A stretch of 34,964 bases of DNA from a virus. Under the pieces are notes generated by a model. That model ran no database searches and was not told the DNA's origin. It saw nothing but the letters and a program-made list of their open reading frames with translations. The DNA lies in IMG/VR virus record IMGVR_UViG_3300034072_000381, positions 1 through 34,964 of that record, one strand, 5' to 3'. The translations under genes and the position numbers were made by a program. Positions 5,024 to 33,177 of this stretch are shown one piece after another. Numbering within the stretch: the stretch's first letter is position 1; each line of letters begins with the position of its first letter.

Positions 5024-6031
5024 ATGGATATGGAAAATCAGGCTGACACCCAAGACCCAGGGCAAGAGCAGCCGCTAGACCGCAAAGAGCTTCTCGCACA
5101 GCAGTTTGATGCCGTGGAAGCGGGCGAAGATCCCGCCCCCCAGGCCAGCAATCGAGATCAATCAGGTCGGTTTACGAAAACCAAAGAGCCGGCACCGCAA
5201 GAACCTGCCGAACAGCCGGTATGGTCGAAGCCGCCCGCCTCATGGAAAAAGGAATATCACGAGTATTGGCACAAAGCCGACCCTAAACTGCGCGAATACG
5301 CCTGGCAGCGCGAAGAGCAGATGAAAAAAGGCGTCGAGCCGCTCCTTTCCAAGGCTCAATTTGCCGATGCGATGAACGAGGCGCTCGAGCCGTATATGGC
5401 GACGATCCGCGGGCTCGGCATGACGCCTGATAAGGCCGTTGCCGCGCTCGCACAGGCCGACCATACGCTCCGAACGTCGCCGCCAGAGCAAAAAATGCAG
5501 TATTTCCTGCAATTGGCGCAGAGCTATGGCATTAACCTCGGCCAATTAGGCCAAGGTGGGCAGGCCGCGATGCCGCAAGCGCCAGGCGCCGTCGATCCGA
5601 TGGTGTGGCAGTTGCAAAACGAGCTTAACGCCATGCGTGGCGAGGTAATGGGCTGGAAGCAGCAGCAGGAAATGCAGCAGAACCAGCAGTTACTCAACGA
5701 AATTAACGATTTCTCGCTGAAGGCCGAGCATTTTGAAGACGCTCGACCGACCATGATCCAGCTTTTACAGAGCGGGGTTGCGGAAACGCTAGAAGATGCG
5801 TATGAAAAAGCGATAAGATTAGATTCAGAGCTGTTTGAGCGGGTGCAATCGGCCTCACAGGCGCAGGTTGCAGCTAAACAGGCAGCGCAGAAAGATCGAG
5901 CAGCAAAATCTGCCCGAGCAGCCGCGGTTAGCGTCAGAGGTTCCACACCAGGAACCAACACGGCTTCCAAAGCGCAAAGTCGCCGCTCTCTGCTTGAGGA
6001 GGCATTCTCCGATTTAGAGCAGCGGTTATAA
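5024..6031 (+). CDS. Scaffolding-type head assembly protein
   Basis: A 335-residue acidic, Gln/Glu/Ala-rich, mostly helical protein immediately upstream of the major capsid gene, the standard place for a scaffold. The N-terminal 60 residues look disordered (Asp/Glu/Gln/Pro-rich). Residues around 65-85 contain PPASWKKEYHEYWHKADPKLREY, a motif I associate with podovirus scaffold proteins, followed by long amphipathic helices and a Gln-rich coiled coil (about 200-230). The C terminus has a basic helix rich in Arg and Lys, which in known scaffolds binds the coat protein. Start ATG 5024 has AGGAGA 9 bases upstream. Confidence 0.85.
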   Translation: MDMENQADTQDPGQEQPLDRKELLAQQFDAVEAGEDPAPQASNRDQSGRFTKTKEPAPQEPAEQPVWSKPPASWKKEYHEYWHKADPKLREYAWQREEQMKKGVEPLLSKAQFADAMNEALEPYMATIRGLGMTPDKAVAALAQADHTLRTSPPEQKMQYFLQLAQSYGINLGQLGQGGQAAMPQAPGAVDPMVWQLQNELNAMRGEVMGWKQQQEMQQNQQLLNEINDFSLKAEHFEDARPTMIQLLQSGVAETLEDAYEKAIRLDSELFERVQSASQAQVAAKQAAQKDRAAKSARAAAVSVRGSTPGTNTASKAQSRRSLLEEAFSDLEQRL

Positions 6032-24281: not shown

Positions 24282-24385
24282 CAGTAATCCCTCCCTCCTC
24301 GAGAACATCTCACATTCGGAGCAGGCACCCAGCGCCATTCGTAAGCTCGCCAGGCGCGATATCGCTCTAACCATCGTCGGATCAT
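24278..24385 (-). CDS. Micro-gene, 35 aa, Trp/Arg-rich
   Basis: A 35-residue frame beginning in an ATGA overlap with the stop of the gene upstream, with GGAGG 4 bases before it, and ending in a GTGA overlap with the gene downstream. The product is very basic and aromatic (MIRRWLERYRAWRAYEWRW at the start). The coupling at both ends is what one expects of a real phage micro-gene. The competing explanation is a single longer gene in the other frame from 24374. Confidence 0.5.
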   Translation of the reverse strand: MIRRWLERYRAWRAYEWRWVPAPNVRCSRGGRDYW

Positions 24386-24948
24386 AAGGCCTCCACACTG
24401 TAGCTATCGCTCGGTGATCTCCACTCTTTGTCAGGTTTTGGGTCGATCCAGCTAGGATCTGACCATAGCAATCGGTTATTCGGGTAGGCAATCAGCTGCC
24501 CTTTGCCCGCTCCTTTGGCGCTATCAAGGGCGATAACGTGATGGTTTTTGTGCTGATCGCTGACCTCTGACCACCCATCCTTGGCCCAATCAATTGTGAA
24601 AAGGTAAGTGCCTTTGCGGATCTGACCGTCACGGCCTAGAGCGCTGACTCTGTGGTTACGTAAGAACGCGAAGGCGTGTACCTGGGCGTAGTAGCCATAA
24701 CTATCCCACCAGGCGCAGAGATCGACTGAGAGCGGCTCACAGGGCGCTATACAGAGGGCGTGTATTGGGATGCGAGCCCATTGCGCGCCCGATGCCAGCA
24801 TGATTTGGAACATAGGCACTCGAGCAGGCTCTGCGCGAAACCCGAATATCGTCGCCTCGGTGTATTCGCCCTGGCCTTTTGCCTGGTCATAGAGGAACTC
24901 ATTGCGAACATGGCACTCGACGTAAGGGGTGTCGCAGAGGAAGTTCAT
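24382..24948 (-). CDS. Conserved phage protein of unknown function
   Basis: A 188-residue protein. The order FRAEPARVPMFQIMLASGAQWARIPIHALC, then CAWWDSYGYYAQVHAFAFLRNHRV, then TYLFTIDWAKDG, SDQHKNHHVIALD and IAYPNNRLLWSDPSW recurs in a family of marine and freshwater phage proteins whose function is not established. ATG 24948 has AGGAGG 9 bases upstream; a GTG two codons earlier would be too close to that site. It overlaps its upstream neighbour by 4 bases in the leftward early operon. Confidence 0.82.
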   Translation of the reverse strand: MNFLCDTPYVECHVRNEFLYDQAKGQGEYTEATIFGFRAEPARVPMFQIMLASGAQWARIPIHALCIAPCEPLSVDLCAWWDSYGYYAQVHAFAFLRNHRVSALGRDGQIRKGTYLFTIDWAKDGWSEVSDQHKNHHVIALDSAKGAGKGQLIAYPNNRLLWSDPSWIDPKPDKEWRSPSDSYSVEAL

Positions 24949-25232
24949 ACCCACCCCTCCTTAACCAGCTGCGCGATCGTGCGCGCCATGCCCTCGAAAT
25001 GCGCGAGGCGTAACTCATCGCGGGATAGGCCGCTCTTATTCGTGCGACCGTCGACCTCATCGTGGCACGCAGAGCACGCCCAGGCGCCGAGCAGATCGGG
25101 TGCTTTGGTTCCCATGCCAGAGATCCCTGCAAGGCGTATATGAGCCAATACAACGGTTTGGCTATTAAAGTTACAAACGCCAGGAATGCGTACTAAGCAC
25201 CCGCGATCTTTAGCGAATTTGCGGTAATTCAC
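24945..25232 (-). CDS. YbcO-like DUF1364 nuclease
   Basis: A 95-residue protein matching the DUF1364 pattern known from E. coli prophage YbcO: KFAKDRGCLVRIPGVCNFNSQTVVLAH, a Gly-rich loop GISGMGTKAPDLLGAWAC, then SACHDEVDGRT and LRLAHFEGMARTI. The Cys16, Cys21, His32, Cys53 and His57 arrangement fits an HNH-type metal-binding nuclease fold that probably acts in phage recombination or repair. The start is GTG in a GTGA overlap with the upstream gene, with GGAG 9 bases before. Confidence 0.88.
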   Translation of the reverse strand: MNYRKFAKDRGCLVRIPGVCNFNSQTVVLAHIRLAGISGMGTKAPDLLGAWACSACHDEVDGRTNKSGLSRDELRLAHFEGMARTIAQLVKEGWV

Positions 25233-26454: not shown

Positions 26455-26688
26455 TTAAAACGGCAGATCGTCATCGAACTCGACGTCGACCTTGGCCTCG
26501 GGTTTAGGCTTCGGCTGGGTCACGCTCAAGCTCATAAACGGCTTGCCGGCCTTGGACTTTTTCATACGTCCAAAGATCGTCCACTCACGCCCCTCGACGT
26601 TGAGCGAGCCGATGTAATCAGGGCTCTTATCGGAACGCTTCTCGCCGGCTCGGAATAAAACACCTGTATTCGTATTGTCGTAGGTCAC
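26455..26688 (-). CDS. Small DUF736-like protein with SSB-type acidic tip
   Basis: A 77-residue protein starting with GTG in an overlap with the exonuclease gene. The body (NTGVLFRAGEKRSDKSPDYIGSLNVEGREWTIFGRMKKSKAGKPFMSLSVTQ) has the strand order of small OB-like DUF736 proteins. It ends in FDDDLPF, the same kind of acidic Asp-rich, Phe-ending tip that bacterial single-stranded-DNA-binding proteins use to recruit partner enzymes. Adjacent exonuclease and ERF genes fit an ssDNA-handling role. That it binds ssDNA is inference. Confidence 0.82.
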   Translation of the reverse strand: MTYDNTNTGVLFRAGEKRSDKSPDYIGSLNVEGREWTIFGRMKKSKAGKPFMSLSVTQPKPKPEAKVDVEFDDDLPF

Positions 26689-27308
26689 AGTTTCACCTCA
26701 TTCAATTTGTTAACTTTGTCTTCCAACTCGCCCAAAAACATAGACACCTCGGCCTCGATCTCGGCAATGCGCGTGTCATCGCGCTCGACACGAATGATCA
26801 ACAGCTGCAAGTGCTCAGGCAGCCTTGGATCGTAGGCCGCAAAATCGCACCATTTCGCATTTGTCACAGCCATTTGGAATTGCATCTGGGCCAAGTATCG
26901 AGCGGGAATCGTGCGAGTGAGAATCCACTCAAGTATCGTGTTGGTCTGTGGGCATTTGATCTCGACTAGGCCCTCGCCGACGATGCCATCAGGAGACGCC
27001 CCAGCGCCTTGTATCGTCGGGTGGTCAATAAACCCCACCTCCTCGACAAGCTCGCCTGTACGGGCCGCATATGCAGCCCTAGCGTGCGGTTCCTGCTCCG
27101 TACCCCACTCCATTGCGGCGTTGCTGAACGACTCGGTAGGTTTACCCGTCAGTCGCTCGACGATCAGCTGGGCCATGTAGTTATCGCGACTTGCTGAGTA
27201 GCCTGATCGGGTTTTGGCGATGACATCAGCAACGCGGCTGGCGGTGACTTTGCCGAGGCGGGACTGTAGCCATTCCTCGCGGTTAGCTTGTTGGTAGGAC
27301 TGCATCAT
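26685..27308 (-). CDS. YqaJ / lambda-exonuclease-like recombination nuclease
   Basis: A 207-residue nuclease of the PD-(D/E)XK YqaJ group. Visible motifs are EEWLQSRLGKVTASRV near the N terminus, WGTEQEPHARAAY (68-80), GASPDGIV (Asp107) and VEIKCP (Glu116, Lys118), then YLAQMQFQMAV. It would degrade one strand of DNA ends to expose ssDNA for the ERF protein encoded just upstream. I chose ATG 27308, 7 bases after GGAGG; a GTG one codon earlier and an ATG one codon later are alternatives. Confidence 0.92.
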   Translation of the reverse strand: MMQSYQQANREEWLQSRLGKVTASRVADVIAKTRSGYSASRDNYMAQLIVERLTGKPTESFSNAAMEWGTEQEPHARAAYAARTGELVEEVGFIDHPTIQGAGASPDGIVGEGLVEIKCPQTNTILEWILTRTIPARYLAQMQFQMAVTNAKWCDFAAYDPRLPEHLQLLIIRVERDDTRIAEIEAEVSMFLGELEDKVNKLNEVKL

Positions 27309-27868
27309 CACGCTGCCTCCGGTGGGGGTGTCAGTTCTTTCTTGCGGGCGGTGAACACAGCCATATGCGCGAGCCGTTGCTCATTGCTTAGGCGCTTAAA
27401 CAACTTGGTGAGCTCCTCGACCGTTTGTGCGTTGTTAATCAATGCAACTACATCAGGGTCAATTTCTGTTTTAGGCTTGTGACGCGCCTGGGCGGCCTCG
27501 GCGTCATCGTCGATCTGGGCTAGGCCTACGATCGCAGCCAAGGCGTATCGCCTGGCATAGGTAATCCCAGAGCCTTGCGCCTGGGGGCTGTCATCCTTCG
27601 TCAGCACAGGCGTGATCGACTTAATCCATTCGCCGCTCGAGTGGGCAAGCGTCGTAATCAGCACAGGCTTATCGCCAATGATGTCGATCGCTTGGATGAC
27701 GGCGAGGCCGTTCTCCGACAGCTGGGTTCGACAGGCGTCCCAACATGAGGCAAGGTCGGCATATTTGCTTTTGAAAAACGGGTTGCTGCTGTCTTTCAGG
27801 GCACCCGTGATCGCGCCTTGTGCTTTGGATAATGCGGCGGCTAAGGCGCCGATGGTGTCACTCTGCAT
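27308..27868 (-). CDS. erf: ERF-family single-strand annealing protein
   Basis: A 186-residue protein with the ERF hallmark NPFFKSKYADLASCWD (28-43) and later HSSGEWI, PVLTKDDSPQAQGSGITYARRYALAAIVGLAQIDDDAE. ERF proteins form rings that anneal complementary single strands during phage recombination and circularisation. Gene order (ERF, nuclease, ssDNA-tip protein) is a standard recombination cassette. AAGGAA is 7 bases before the ATG. The C-terminal 50 residues are a charged helical tail. Confidence 0.93.
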   Translation of the reverse strand: MQSDTIGALAAALSKAQGAITGALKDSSNPFFKSKYADLASCWDACRTQLSENGLAVIQAIDIIGDKPVLITTLAHSSGEWIKSITPVLTKDDSPQAQGSGITYARRYALAAIVGLAQIDDDAEAAQARHKPKTEIDPDVVALINNAQTVEELTKLFKRLSNEQRLAHMAVFTARKKELTPPPEAA

Positions 27869-28998: not shown

Positions 28999-29066
28999 TG
29001 TCTTACCTCTCTCTGGTGTTGTTTCTCTCAACGACACTAGTTTACCAAAGTAAACCTATATGTCAA
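28999..29066 (-). promoter_or_regulatory. Leftward promoter-operator-leader module 2
   Basis: On the minus strand TTGACA (29066-29061), 16 bases, TAAACT (29044-29039). The perfect palindrome GTTTAC-TTTG-GTAAAC fills 29055-29040 and includes most of the -10. The leader has GTTGAGAGAAACAAC, a potential GTTG/CAAC mini-hairpin, and CCAGAGAGAGG as ribosome binding site. Confidence 0.78.
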
Positions 29067-29380: not shown

Positions 29381-29451
29381 GTTAGTAACCTCTCTCTGGT
29401 TCGTTGTTTCTCTCAACGGGATCAGTTTACCACAGTAAAAAACCCTGTCAA
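29381..29451 (-). promoter_or_regulatory. Leftward promoter-operator-leader module 3
   Basis: On the minus strand TTGACA (29451-29446), 16 bases, TAAACT (29429-29424). The palindrome TTTAC-TGTG-GTAAA lies at 29439-29426. The leader repeats GTTGAGAGAAACAAC and CCAGAGAGAGG. It drives the first leftward gene and is back-to-back with the regulator promoter, whose -35 starts 6 bases away. Confidence 0.78.
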
Positions 29452-29456
29452 CGCAC

Positions 29457-29485
29457 TTGCGTAAAATAATTTACATGGGTAAAGT
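29457..29485 (+). promoter_or_regulatory. Rightward regulator promoter with fourth operator
   Basis: TTGCGT (29457-29462), 17 bases, TAAAGT (29480-29485). The operator TTTAC-ATGG-GTAAA (29470-29483) sits in the spacer and supplies the -10 from its distal half, exactly as in the three leftward modules. An extra half-site GTAAA at 29461-29465 forms GTAAA-ATAA-TTTAC with the first. Binding here would block the regulator's own promoter. Confidence 0.6.
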
Positions 29486-29495
29486 TCGCGCCACT

Positions 29496-29663
29496 ATGAC
29501 ACCACAAACTTTGCTCAATCATTTTGGTTCCCAGGCAGCCATTGCCAGGGCGTTTAACGTGACCGATGCCGCGGTGCTGAAGTGGATCAGAGCGGGCGTA
29601 TTACCGCCTCTCAGGGTCTACCAGGCGAAAGAAATGCTGAAAGGCGTGAAGCGCCGCAGATGA
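29496..29663 (+). CDS. Cro-like DNA-binding regulator
   Basis: A 55-residue protein of the lambda-Cro class. The helix-turn-helix is visible in TLLNHFGSQAAIARAFNVTDAAVLKWIRAGVLPPLRVYQ: turn helix QAAIARAF, recognition helix DAAVLKWI. It should bind the palindromes in the four promoters beside it. I chose ATG 29496 because the predicted -10 is at 29480-29485 and transcription would start near 29492. The in-frame ATG 29475 and TTG 29457 lie within the promoter. No Shine-Dalgarno precedes 29496, so a near-leaderless message is implied. It is the only clear transcription factor beside the early promoters. Confidence 0.82.
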   Translation: MTPQTLLNHFGSQAAIARAFNVTDAAVLKWIRAGVLPPLRVYQAKEMLKGVKRRR

Positions 29664-29696
29664 AAAAAAAGCCCCATAACAGCGTTACAAGGCTTT
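29661..29696 (-). terminator. Leftward intrinsic terminator
   Basis: Read leftward, a hairpin AAAGCC ... GGCTTT with an inner stem TAAC-GCT-GTTA is followed by eight T residues, a textbook rho-independent terminator for minus-strand transcription. It lies just after the regulator stop codon. It would end a leftward RNA starting around 30056 or stop read-through from the methyltransferase gene. Confidence 0.7.
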
Positions 29697-30056
29697 CTAG
29701 AACATCAAACCCCCTTTCGGGGGTTGACGGGGCCAAGGGGATGCCCTACGCTCGGGATGCTCATCGAGGTTCAGTGAAGATACCCTTTCGGGAAAAGGTT
29801 GTCAAATTTCACTCGACCTCCAGCTCGGGATTTCTGGTCGGGGAAACAACGCACAGAAACTCCTTAAACCTAGATCGGGGCGGTGGGCCTCTAGGCACGC
29901 AGCGTGTAGCGAGGAAGCGTGAACCACACCAGGGCAACCTGGCAAAAGTAGCTCGCAGCAGGATGGCTCCGACAGTCATCAAATCCTGTACGACATCCCA
30001 TAGGCGTATTCCGTCTGGATGCCGTGCAGGACTCACCAACAGTCATCCCCATTCAA
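29664..30056 (-). ncRNA. Candidate structured non-coding RNA
   Basis: About 395 bases with no convincing gene but dense perfect helices. In plus coordinates: 29737-29743 with 30044-30050 (7 bp) and, nested inside, 29754-29759 with 29994-29999 (6 bp). Local stems are 29766-29770 with 29816-29820 and 29773-29778 with 29808-29813; 29831-29836 with 29854-29859; 29869-29873 with 29891-29895; 29909-29913 with 29952-29956; 29929-29933 with 29938-29942; and 29959-29964 with 29983-29988. Read leftward, two hairpins carry GAAA tetraloops (CCCGAAAGGG, CCCCCGAAAGGGGG), and the RNA would end at a T8 terminator, so I favour the minus strand; the plus strand has a GCAA tetraloop and is not excluded. I do not recognise the family. 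Confidence 0.5.
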
Positions 30057-30064
30057 ACCATAAT
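30036..30064 (+). promoter_or_regulatory. Weak candidate promoter for the 30088 operon
   Basis: CATAAT at 30059-30064 (5/6 to the -10 consensus), with a poor -35 (CCAACA) 17 bases upstream. The overlapping minus-strand GATAAT at 30068-30063 could serve the leftward RNA, so the A/T-rich patch 30059-30075 may be a divergent promoter region. Support is weak. Confidence 0.3.
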
Positions 30065-30087
30065 TATCCATAACACTAGGGGTATCT

Positions 30088-31726: not shown

Positions 31727-32095
31727 ATGGCAGAACACCGTAAAAATGCCGCTCTGTTCGTTGCGACGTTGCTGCATTCGGCGACGGTCACGCACTTACA
31801 GCACCTCCAAACGAAAAGCTATGCCGCGCACAAAGCGCTGCAAAAATACTACGAGACTATTCCTGACCTAGTAGATGACTTTGCGGAAAGTTATCAGGGC
31901 GAATACGGGTTAATCACCGAGTACCCCTCGGATCGCCACAATGCGACCGACCCCAAGCTCTACATGGATCGCTTGGCTGACTTTGTGAGCGAGATCCGCA
32001 CCGTACTGCCGAAAGACACCCCCCTTCAAAACACGGTCGATGAGATCGCCTCGCTGATCAATTCGACGCGGTACAAGCTCAAGTTTCTGTCATGA
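31727..32095 (+). CDS. DUF5856-like phage protein
   Basis: A 122-residue helical protein. LLHSATVTHLQHLQTKSYAAHKALQKYYETIPDLVDDFAESYQGEYG matches the DUF5856 pattern (H..HLQ.KSYA.H.AL..YY....DLVD..AE.YQG.YG), resembling a ferritin-like four-helix bundle. It is found in many tailed phages with no known function. I chose ATG 31727 (MAEHRKN); a TTG at 31709 is an alternative. It is the first gene of the rightward late block and overlaps the next by 4 bases. Confidence 0.84.
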   Translation: MAEHRKNAALFVATLLHSATVTHLQHLQTKSYAAHKALQKYYETIPDLVDDFAESYQGEYGLITEYPSDRHNATDPKLYMDRLADFVSEIRTVLPKDTPLQNTVDEIASLINSTRYKLKFLS

Positions 32096-33177
32096 AACGC
32101 GAGCAGGTCGCGGCGGCACTGCAGTACCTGGGAGACCGCGCCCAATTGCGCGATCGATTCCAGCGCGCTACGACGCTTGATCAACCCACCGACCAGGACG
32201 CTTTCGATGTGGCCGCAGAAATCGGCGCAGGCTTTGTGCCTGGCGTGGGTCAAGTGCAGGCCGGTCGAGACTTCGAGCGCAGTCGCCGCCAGGGCGATCG
32301 GCTTGGAATGTTGCTCGCAGGGTTTGGCATGGTGCCGGTGGTGGGCGGCGCGGCAAAGGCTGTCCAAAAGGCAGGCAAAGCGATCGATAAGGCGATCGAA
32401 GCCAGGATGTTTCAGCGTGTCGATAACGACTTCGACAATTTGATTGAGGAATACAACACGCTTAAAGACGCAAAAGGCGGTCGAGTGTTAAATACGGACA
32501 CGGCTCGGGAGTTATCCCCAGATTACATTGCCGACCGCACCAAATCTGCTGACGTACATGAGCCCTCCAGCGCGTTCATCAAGCGTTTGTATTCCAAGCG
32601 CCTCGCCGAACCAACCCCGCCTGGCAAGGTGCCAGTGGTGGTATTTACCGCAGGCGGCACAGGCGCAGGGAAATCATCAGGCCTTGAACTGCTCGAACAA
32701 CGCAACCCCGCTTTCGCTCAGGCTGAATTGGTGTACGACACCAACATGAACAAATTTAGCTCGGCCAAAGACAAAATCGACCAGGCACTCGAGTCAGGCC
32801 GCGAGGTCAAAATCCTCTACACCTACCGAGATCCTGCCGAATCATTACGCCAGGGCGCGCTGACGCGAGCGATGGGCCAGGAAAAGAAATACGGCACAGG
32901 CCGCACTGTCCCGCTCGCCGAACACGGCAATACTCATGTCGGCGCCCGCAAAACAATGGATCAGCTGCGCGAACACTACAAGGACACGCCAGGCATCGAA
33001 TTCCAGGCGATCGACAACAGCAGAGGCCGCGGCATGGCCCAGGCCGTTGAATTTGAAGATTTACCGCAGTTAAGCGATAATGCACAACTGAGAGGAAAAT
33101 TAAGAGATGAACTCGAAGCAGCCTACCAAGCCGGTGAGATTAGCGAATCCACCTACCGAGGCTTTAAAGACTATTAA
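32092..33177 (+). CDS. Zeta-toxin-like P-loop kinase with hydrophobic N-domain
   Basis: A 361-residue two-part protein. Residues of about 36-100 hold two Gly/Val-rich hydrophobic segments (FDVAAEIGAGFVPGVGQV; GMLLAGFGMVPVVGGAAKAV), seen in phage virion proteins. Residues of about 155-361 are a kinase domain with the Walker A loop GGTGAGKS (188-195), then YDTNMNK, LYTYRDPAESLRQGALTRA and HGNTHVGARKT, the order found in Zeta toxins, which phosphorylate UDP-N-acetylglucosamine. No antitoxin of Epsilon type is adjacent. It lies in the late block before terminase, so it may be a virion or ejected protein. Whether it is toxic is unknown. Confidence 0.83.
   Translation: MKREQVAAALQYLGDRAQLRDRFQRATTLDQPTDQDAFDVAAEIGAGFVPGVGQVQAGRDFERSRRQGDRLGMLLAGFGMVPVVGGAAKAVQKAGKAIDKAIEARMFQRVDNDFDNLIEEYNTLKDAKGGRVLNTDTARELSPDYIADRTKSADVHEPSSAFIKRLYSKRLAEPTPPGKVPVVVFTAGGTGAGKSSGLELLEQRNPAFAQAELVYDTNMNKFSSAKDKIDQALESGREVKILYTYRDPAESLRQGALTRAMGQEKKYGTGRTVPLAEHGNTHVGARKTMDQLREHYKDTPGIEFQAIDNSRGRGMAQAVEFEDLPQLSDNAQLRGKLRDELEAAYQAGEISESTYRGFKDY

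Follow-up and report, generated by a model that had tools for sequence, protein, structure and literature searches.

What does a phage keep in a non-coding stretch ahead of its replication gene? The window, a 34,964-base virus record (IMGVR_UViG_3300034072_000381, positions 1 to 34,964), carries such a stretch between a gene for a P22_Cro-like regulator and a gene for a replication protein, here called rep (Table 1). Rep is related over its full length to the rep of Podoviridae sp. ctkAd229, whose genome has portal, coat, and tail genes of P22 type; judged by this kinship and by the P22_Cro-like gene, the window phage is of P22-like build. A sequence-only reading of the stretch had proposed an undescribed phage-encoded structured RNA and no credible protein gene, and comparison with homologues bore out both proposals.

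Table 1. Features in and around the RNA element of the window
Feature	Position	Strand	Details
P22_Cro-like regulator	29457-29663		Directly left of the RNA element
Promoter	29724-29752	+	−35 TTGACG, 29724-29729; spacer, 29730-29746; −10 TACGCT, 29747-29752
5′ leader of transcript	29760-29823	+	Predicted start at ~29760, placed from the −10 box; conserved GTCAA, 29801-29805
Type I RNA core	29824-30047	+	Eight covarying helices and pseudoknots, from 87-sequence alignment, mutual information, and pair counts
P2	29828-29829/29862-29863 and 29832-29836/29854-29858	+	Encloses conserved GGUCGGGGAAACNACGC loop; 94-95% paired; two-sided changes in 4 pairs
P3	29869-29874/29890-29895	+	100% paired; two-sided changes in 6/6 pairs
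P4	29883-29886/29924-29927	+	Crosses P3; 97.7% paired; two-sided changes in 3/4 pairs
P5	29896-29900/29917-29921	+	100% paired; two-sided changes in 2/5 pairs
P6	29909-29913/29952-29956	+	Crosses P4 and P5; 99.5% paired; two-sided changes in 4/5 pairs
P7 hairpin	29929-29933/29938-29942	+	90.5% paired; two-sided changes in 5/5 pairs
Repeat copy 1 (ACAGTCATC)	29972-29980	+	After invariant GGCTCC
P8 hairpin	29985-29992/30023-30030	+	Between the repeats; 98.1% paired; two-sided changes in 6/8 pairs
Repeat copy 2 (ACAGTCATC)	30039-30047	+	After CACC; conservation ends here (3′) and AT content rises beyond
Replication protein (rep), 178 aa	30088-30624	+	C-terminal half of O-like/primosomal proteins; N-terminal DUF1376 half absent

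A structured RNA family upstream of rep

Searching viral contigs with the rep protein yielded ten first loci, nine of which (all but L007) carried the RNA sequence upstream of rep; in L001 and L010 the RNA was only partial because the contig ends there. A single conserved motif, CGGGGAAACNACGCRCAGA, matched at least 120 contigs, nearly all matches being true members, and the RNA, designated type I, was present in more than 100 viral contigs. All members of the family come from uncultured phages, described as freshwater-type. An alignment (A2) was built from 87 non-redundant full-length copies, which have in common the promoter, a variable leader, the core, and two direct repeats.

Across the eight helices of the core (40 pairs), standard pairing was found in 97.2% of 3446 alignment cells, compared with 81.4% in shuffles and 27 to 43% when partners were slid. 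Two-sided changes occurred in 30 of the 40 pairs and in 604 cells (172 in shuffles), and the covariation score over the 87 copies was 0.477 as opposed to 0.189. The pairs of highest mutual information recovered the helices without any preset structure. As P4 crosses P3, and P6 crosses both P4 and P5, the core is pseudoknotted. Folding was better than in shuffled sequence on both strands, with z scores of −3.76 (plus) and −2.94 (minus) for 431 nt and of −2.57 and −2.21 for the 224-nt core; being only moderate and present on both strands, this excess settles neither the strand nor the reality of the RNA. Core lengths in the homologues are spread over all three reading frames, so the element is not a protein gene; 42 of the 87 copies have no open plus-strand frame, and a protein-coding reading was rejected for want of a common one. 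Covariance-model searches with Rfam 15 gave no gathering-level match in the window, GOLLD, ROOL, riboswitches, and group I introns included. Type I is thus a real, structured RNA family with no relative in Rfam.

The promoter was kept in all 87 copies as TTGACG or TTTACA followed, at a spacing of 17 to 18 bp, by TAnnnT. In the window the 17-bp spacer is palindromic, and among the homologues the spacer took 58 distinct forms with 4.8 palindromic pairs, compared with 3.2 (SD, 0.86) after shuffling. A spacer that is palindromic yet free to vary could be a repressor operator tracking changing repressors, or a cruciform; in the transcript model it lies outside the RNA. Pairing of TTGAC with GTCAA as an RNA helix was rejected, since TTTAC variants retain GTCAA and TTGAC belongs to the −35 box. 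Near the Cro-like gene, GTTTAC...GTAAAC palindromes recur at 29040-29060, 29420-29440, and 29465-29485, where they overlap promoter-like sites, and these are probably operators of that gene.

The plus strand is well supported by the conserved promoter, by gene context and order, and by the excess of G.U over A.C in the helices read as plus strand (61 cells in 14 pairs versus 26 cells in 6 pairs). Transcription probably begins near 29760, and conservation of the RNA extends to 30047; these limits replace the boundaries of 29664 and 30056 proposed earlier. The two long-range helices that had been drawn around the local stems are perfect complements in this genome, but neither was kept in homologues, and the first has its 5′ arm (29737-29743) inside the promoter spacer. 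No intrinsic terminator was found after repeat 2 in the window or in L153.

A direct repeat of changing sequence within the type I RNA

In the aligned members, the 7 to 11 nt that follow GGCTCC recur after CACC, 59 to 72 nt downstream, so that the two copies flank P8. In an anchored test, copies 1 and 2 shared at least 7 identical nucleotides in 86 of 87 sequences, the sole failure (L176) being an artifact of a mis-anchored tail; with copy 2 permuted among sequences, the mean was 60.9 and the maximum 69 in 2000 trials. The repeat itself differed across type I, with variants including UCAGUCAUC, ACAGUCAUC, AAGGUCAU, AAGGUCAAA, AAGGGCAUA, UCAGGUUUG, AAGGCUCA, and AAGGCCCAUC. When the repeats were left out of tree building, the resulting tree required at least 19 changes of repeat sequence (6 if variants were coarsely lumped), and the identity between the copies was kept. 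Type I RNAs therefore hold their two copies identical despite changing sequence.

No complement of the repeat was conserved within the RNA or in the phage contigs. For two identical, freely varying strings with no partner in RNA, a natural explanation would be that one copy, in RNA form, pairs with the template strand of the other. A switch in which repeat 1 pairs with the invariant GGCTCC arm was rejected, as the repeats change in L030/L064 and L129 and the arm is constant. Beyond repeat 2, the AT fraction climbs from about 0.43 to 0.59.

Exchange of RNA and protein cassettes in the slot before rep

Linkage to rep was assessed in 82 loci selected independently of the RNA, 81 of them through the rep protein and one (L129) through a tblastn match of that protein in a phage record. 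Type I RNA preceded rep in 45 of them, a second RNA (type II) in 32, a DUF1376 gene in 2, and a third element in L129; the remaining 2 were ended by the contig. Thus, 77 of the 78 intact loci not carrying DUF1376 had an RNA before rep. RNA and rep lay 12 to 1103 nt apart, in some loci with a further gene between them, and control of a single start codon is therefore not a sufficient account. In L323 and L206, the genes between RNA and rep include HNH-nuclease-like and methylase-like reading frames. The loci L018, L020, L025, L031, and others labeled 'MGD' bear the RNA with a rep of which only the last ~80 aa are present, without the O-like domain.

The window rep matches residues 223 to 299 of 346 in phrog_678 and residues 180 to 261 of 272 in phrog_6451. 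Its AlphaFold model is all-helical (mean pLDDT, 90.6), and a PDB fold search with the model gave no significant match. In the single protein of phrog_6451, DUF1376 occupies residues 2 to 122 ahead of the domain shared with the window rep; the ordinary full-length protein therefore consists of DUF1376, a linker, and the rep domain.

The same promoter module sits before the type I, type II, and DUF1376 (PF07120; E value, 2e−26) cassettes. Rep proteins were 91 to 99% identical among L327 (type I), L317 (type II), and L318 and L320 (both DUF1376), and the 250 nt preceding the promoter were 90 to 96% identical in L317, L320, and L327, so that their difference in kind is confined to what separates the promoter module from rep. 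Likewise, L309 (type II) and L306 (type I) shared 96% identity in rep and 94% upstream. Type I RNA, type II RNA, and a DUF1376 gene are hence exchanged as cassettes in one slot, which demonstrates that their function is interchangeable and not which function it is.

Lambda-type origins lie within O genes and are laid out as iterons followed by an AT-rich repeat. DUF1376 cassettes contain three iterons spaced 11 bp apart and then an AT-rich direct repeat resembling TCCAATAACCAAT; the isolated Bordetella phage IFTN2 has a fused DUF1376-rep gene with 11-bp-spaced repeats and a AACCAGAACCAG run inside it. The DUF1376 gene is the N-terminal half missing from the window rep and, by its iterons and AT-rich repeat, contains a lambda-type origin; we infer, by analogy with O-type initiators, that DUF1376 may bind the iterons. 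The window contained no iteron triple with a period of 10 to 12 bp and no AT-rich repeat of the DUF1376-cassette kind, the latter being absent from L317 and L327 also, and DUF1376 was found in none of the RNA-bearing loci collected up to that search.

About 40% of rep loci have type II RNA in the slot (for example, L146, L148, L158, and L317). This second structured RNA, which looks unrelated to type I, differs from it in sequence, carries a G-rich hairpin, GGGGGGUAGGGGGG, and has its 3′ end at CCGAGCAU. The direct repeat shrinks in type II to about GCAU/GCAG, and the repeat was accordingly rejected as a rule covering both types; on present sequences it is established for type I and otherwise seen in L129 only. 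In this distant relative (MW202691), a structured-looking third element at 5440-6020 before rep has the same repeat layout, each of the two repeat places being occupied by AGCGTGTGCA, a 10-mer very unlike the type I repeats. L305, a near relative of L129 (rep 97% identical), is quite different before rep.

E-value searches of Rfam with type I, type II, and L129 loci returned only irrelevant sub-threshold matches. Type I and type II DNA had nothing above chance-level matches in isolate phages and plasmids, a relaxed sequence pattern scanned over genomes gave zero matches, and 72,556 plasmid records, searched as a sequence test for kinship with RNA II of plasmid ColE1, held no similarity to either type. 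The sole match of a rep-protein scan of reference genomes was a MAG contig binned as Candidatus Paceibacterota (L303), which carries a type II RNA with its G-rich hairpin and is possibly a phage contig put in the wrong bin. No description of such an RNA was found in the open-access papers searched; one may exist elsewhere.

Proposed role in replication and competing explanations

In sister phages the slot of the RNA is taken by an initiator gene with a classical origin, and DNA copying therefore probably begins with the RNA. Origin function is the simplest role that the sequences suggest for a cassette appearing to substitute for the initiator N-domain and origin, and it is considered likely. 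A fuller reading, in which the cassette is a replication-origin or initiator module made of RNA and acting by repeat pairing, has somewhat better than an even chance.

In the proposed mechanism, the strong promoter would give rise to a transcript of ~290 nt, in which a pseudoknotted domain is predicted to form at 29824-29956, with repeat 1, a hairpin, and repeat 2 coming after it in that order. The folded RNA would expose the 9-nt repeat 1, which would pair with the template strand at repeat 2 during or just after the passage of polymerase and so fix an RNA-DNA hybrid (R-loop) beside the AT-richer downstream DNA. The displaced strand or a primer, together with the rep protein, could then load the host helicase, by analogy with ColE1 RNA II replication; the rep encoded downstream would be what remains, as a C-terminal half, of an O-like initiator. 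We infer each of these steps (transcription, hybrid, priming, and helicase loading). That repeat 1 pairs with template DNA, as the repeat sequences suggest, is tentative and falls somewhat short of an even chance. Much the same doubt attaches to the view that the structured RNA replaced a protein initiator domain and iteron origin, with a 9-nt guide selecting the origin by template-strand pairing. As identity in type II is limited to GCAU/GCAG, the repeat-pairing step may not be general.

In ColE1 the primer is processed by RNase H, and a G-rich loop of RNA II corresponds to C-rich template close to the origin, formally also a direct repeat. Among replicons that a structured transcript opens, ColE1 is the best known, and its RNA II forms a persistent RNA-DNA hybrid, the normal hybrid of RNA polymerase being ~10 nt (PMC5043065). 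The phage repeat, at 9 nt, is close to the latter length. Like RNA II, the phage RNA has a fold and would be transcribed from a promoter lying before the proposed start site, fold and promoter being conserved among the homologues; the fold is needed for RNA II function, and a persistent hybrid is the likeness proposed. Unlike RNA II, with which it shares no sequence or Rfam similarity, it is borne by P22-like phages, is coupled to an O-like rep, and can be swapped with a protein initiator cassette; its repeats are not G-runs, and ColE1 itself works without a plasmid-encoded initiator. With lambda-type O genes and their in-gene iteron origins (phrog_6451, phrog_678), the module shares the slot, the C-terminal rep domain, and near-identical flanks, but the N-terminal domain and the iterons with their AT repeat are missing and an RNA is found instead.

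The alternative that survives best, though unlikely, is a cis-acting leader of the rep operon, such as a riboswitch-like or protein-bound 5′ UTR whose repeats would serve as sites for alternative pairing or a regulator. A leader would fit the constant position ahead of rep in the same orientation, the Shine-Dalgarno-like run and start codon adjoining repeat 2 in many members, and a candidate alternative stem around repeat 1 (stem A) that overlaps P8, itself weak at 5.2 versus 4.6 pairs. It is harder to reconcile with a gap of up to 1103 nt with other genes intervening, with the lack of a conserved terminator or anti-SD element after the core and of a conserved repeat complement in the RNA, and with near-identical phages that fill the slot with an initiator domain and iteron origin.

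A trans-acting or structural RNA of the GOLLD, ROOL, or OLE kind, or a two-site guide or sponge directed at host nucleic acid, is improbable. Size, pseudoknots, and a strong promoter would suit the former, and two identical strings of free sequence the latter; neither accounts for the constant location ahead of rep (77 of the 78 intact loci lacking DUF1376), for a slot otherwise taken by a replication gene, or for the lack of a conserved repeat complement in phage contigs. The likeness to GOLLD and ROOL (PMC12286853) lies in a large, multi-stem, phage-borne, metagenome-derived RNA; unlike them, the present one is about 220 to 290 nt, matches nothing in Rfam, is tied to a replication gene, and follows a direct-repeat rule. 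The earlier comparison with these RNAs thus held for complexity only, as the element occupies a replication-gene slot and is not a free-standing RNA gene.

HK022 put is a structured RNA that lies early in a phage operon. A processive antitermination RNA of this type, acting on RNA polymerase in the early operon, is slightly less probable still. The element does directly follow an early promoter and precede the operon, where distance to the first gene would be immaterial, but antitermination leaves unexplained both the exchange with the DUF1376/iteron cassette and the two identical repeats of free sequence. The put RNA is also far smaller than the present one and is not known to undergo exchange of replication cassettes. 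Lambda OOP RNA likewise adjoins phage replication genes; it is a small RNA antisense to cII, once proposed as a primer in a role later rejected (PMC12197685), and no fold like that of type I is known for it.

It is very unlikely that the two 9-mers are DNA-level iterons, protein sites that track a changing DNA-binding protein. Two direct copies about 60 to 70 bp apart near a replication gene are compatible with such sites, but identity to the single letter across many sequences suits base pairing better than protein recognition, two far-apart copies do not resemble the iterons that recur every 11 bp in the sister cassettes, and the conserved RNA fold would be left unexplained. Least probable by far is the leftward RNA of the sequence-only reading, running on the minus strand from 30059 to 29664: that strand folds too and the T8 terminator at 29666-29698 is real, but neither the terminator (absent from L006 and L010, both type I, and so not part of the RNA) nor the outer helices are conserved, a start at the A/T-rich patch at 30059-30075 was not supported, and promoter, context, and G.U counts favor the plus strand.

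A class of pseudoknotted RNA in more than 100 phage contigs and with no Rfam relative would be notable by itself. Its exchange with a protein-initiator/iteron-origin cassette in near-identical phages suggests that an RNA can replace both an origin-binding protein and its DNA sites. If the view of a 9-nt guide pairing with template DNA is true, the locus would be an RNA-guided origin, interchangeable by recombination with a protein version, and at least two unrelated RNA types would share the slot. Newness rests on the exchange and on the unrelated fold, and would be lesser if the R-loop step proves ColE1-like. The exchange supplies natural matched pairs of phages, and the repeat rule makes the base-pairing idea directly testable.

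GC skew in the window reaches a local minimum near 30 kb, at the same place as the change of gene strand, and so is not independent evidence for an origin. To the right of the replication genes, the product of 32092-33174 (361 aa) contains a Zeta_toxin domain (PF06414; E value, 3e−13). The minus strand, at 24382-24954 and 26685-27868, encodes a protein of a ferredoxin-like family (phrog_3704) and a YqaJ exonuclease adjoining an ERF annealing protein.
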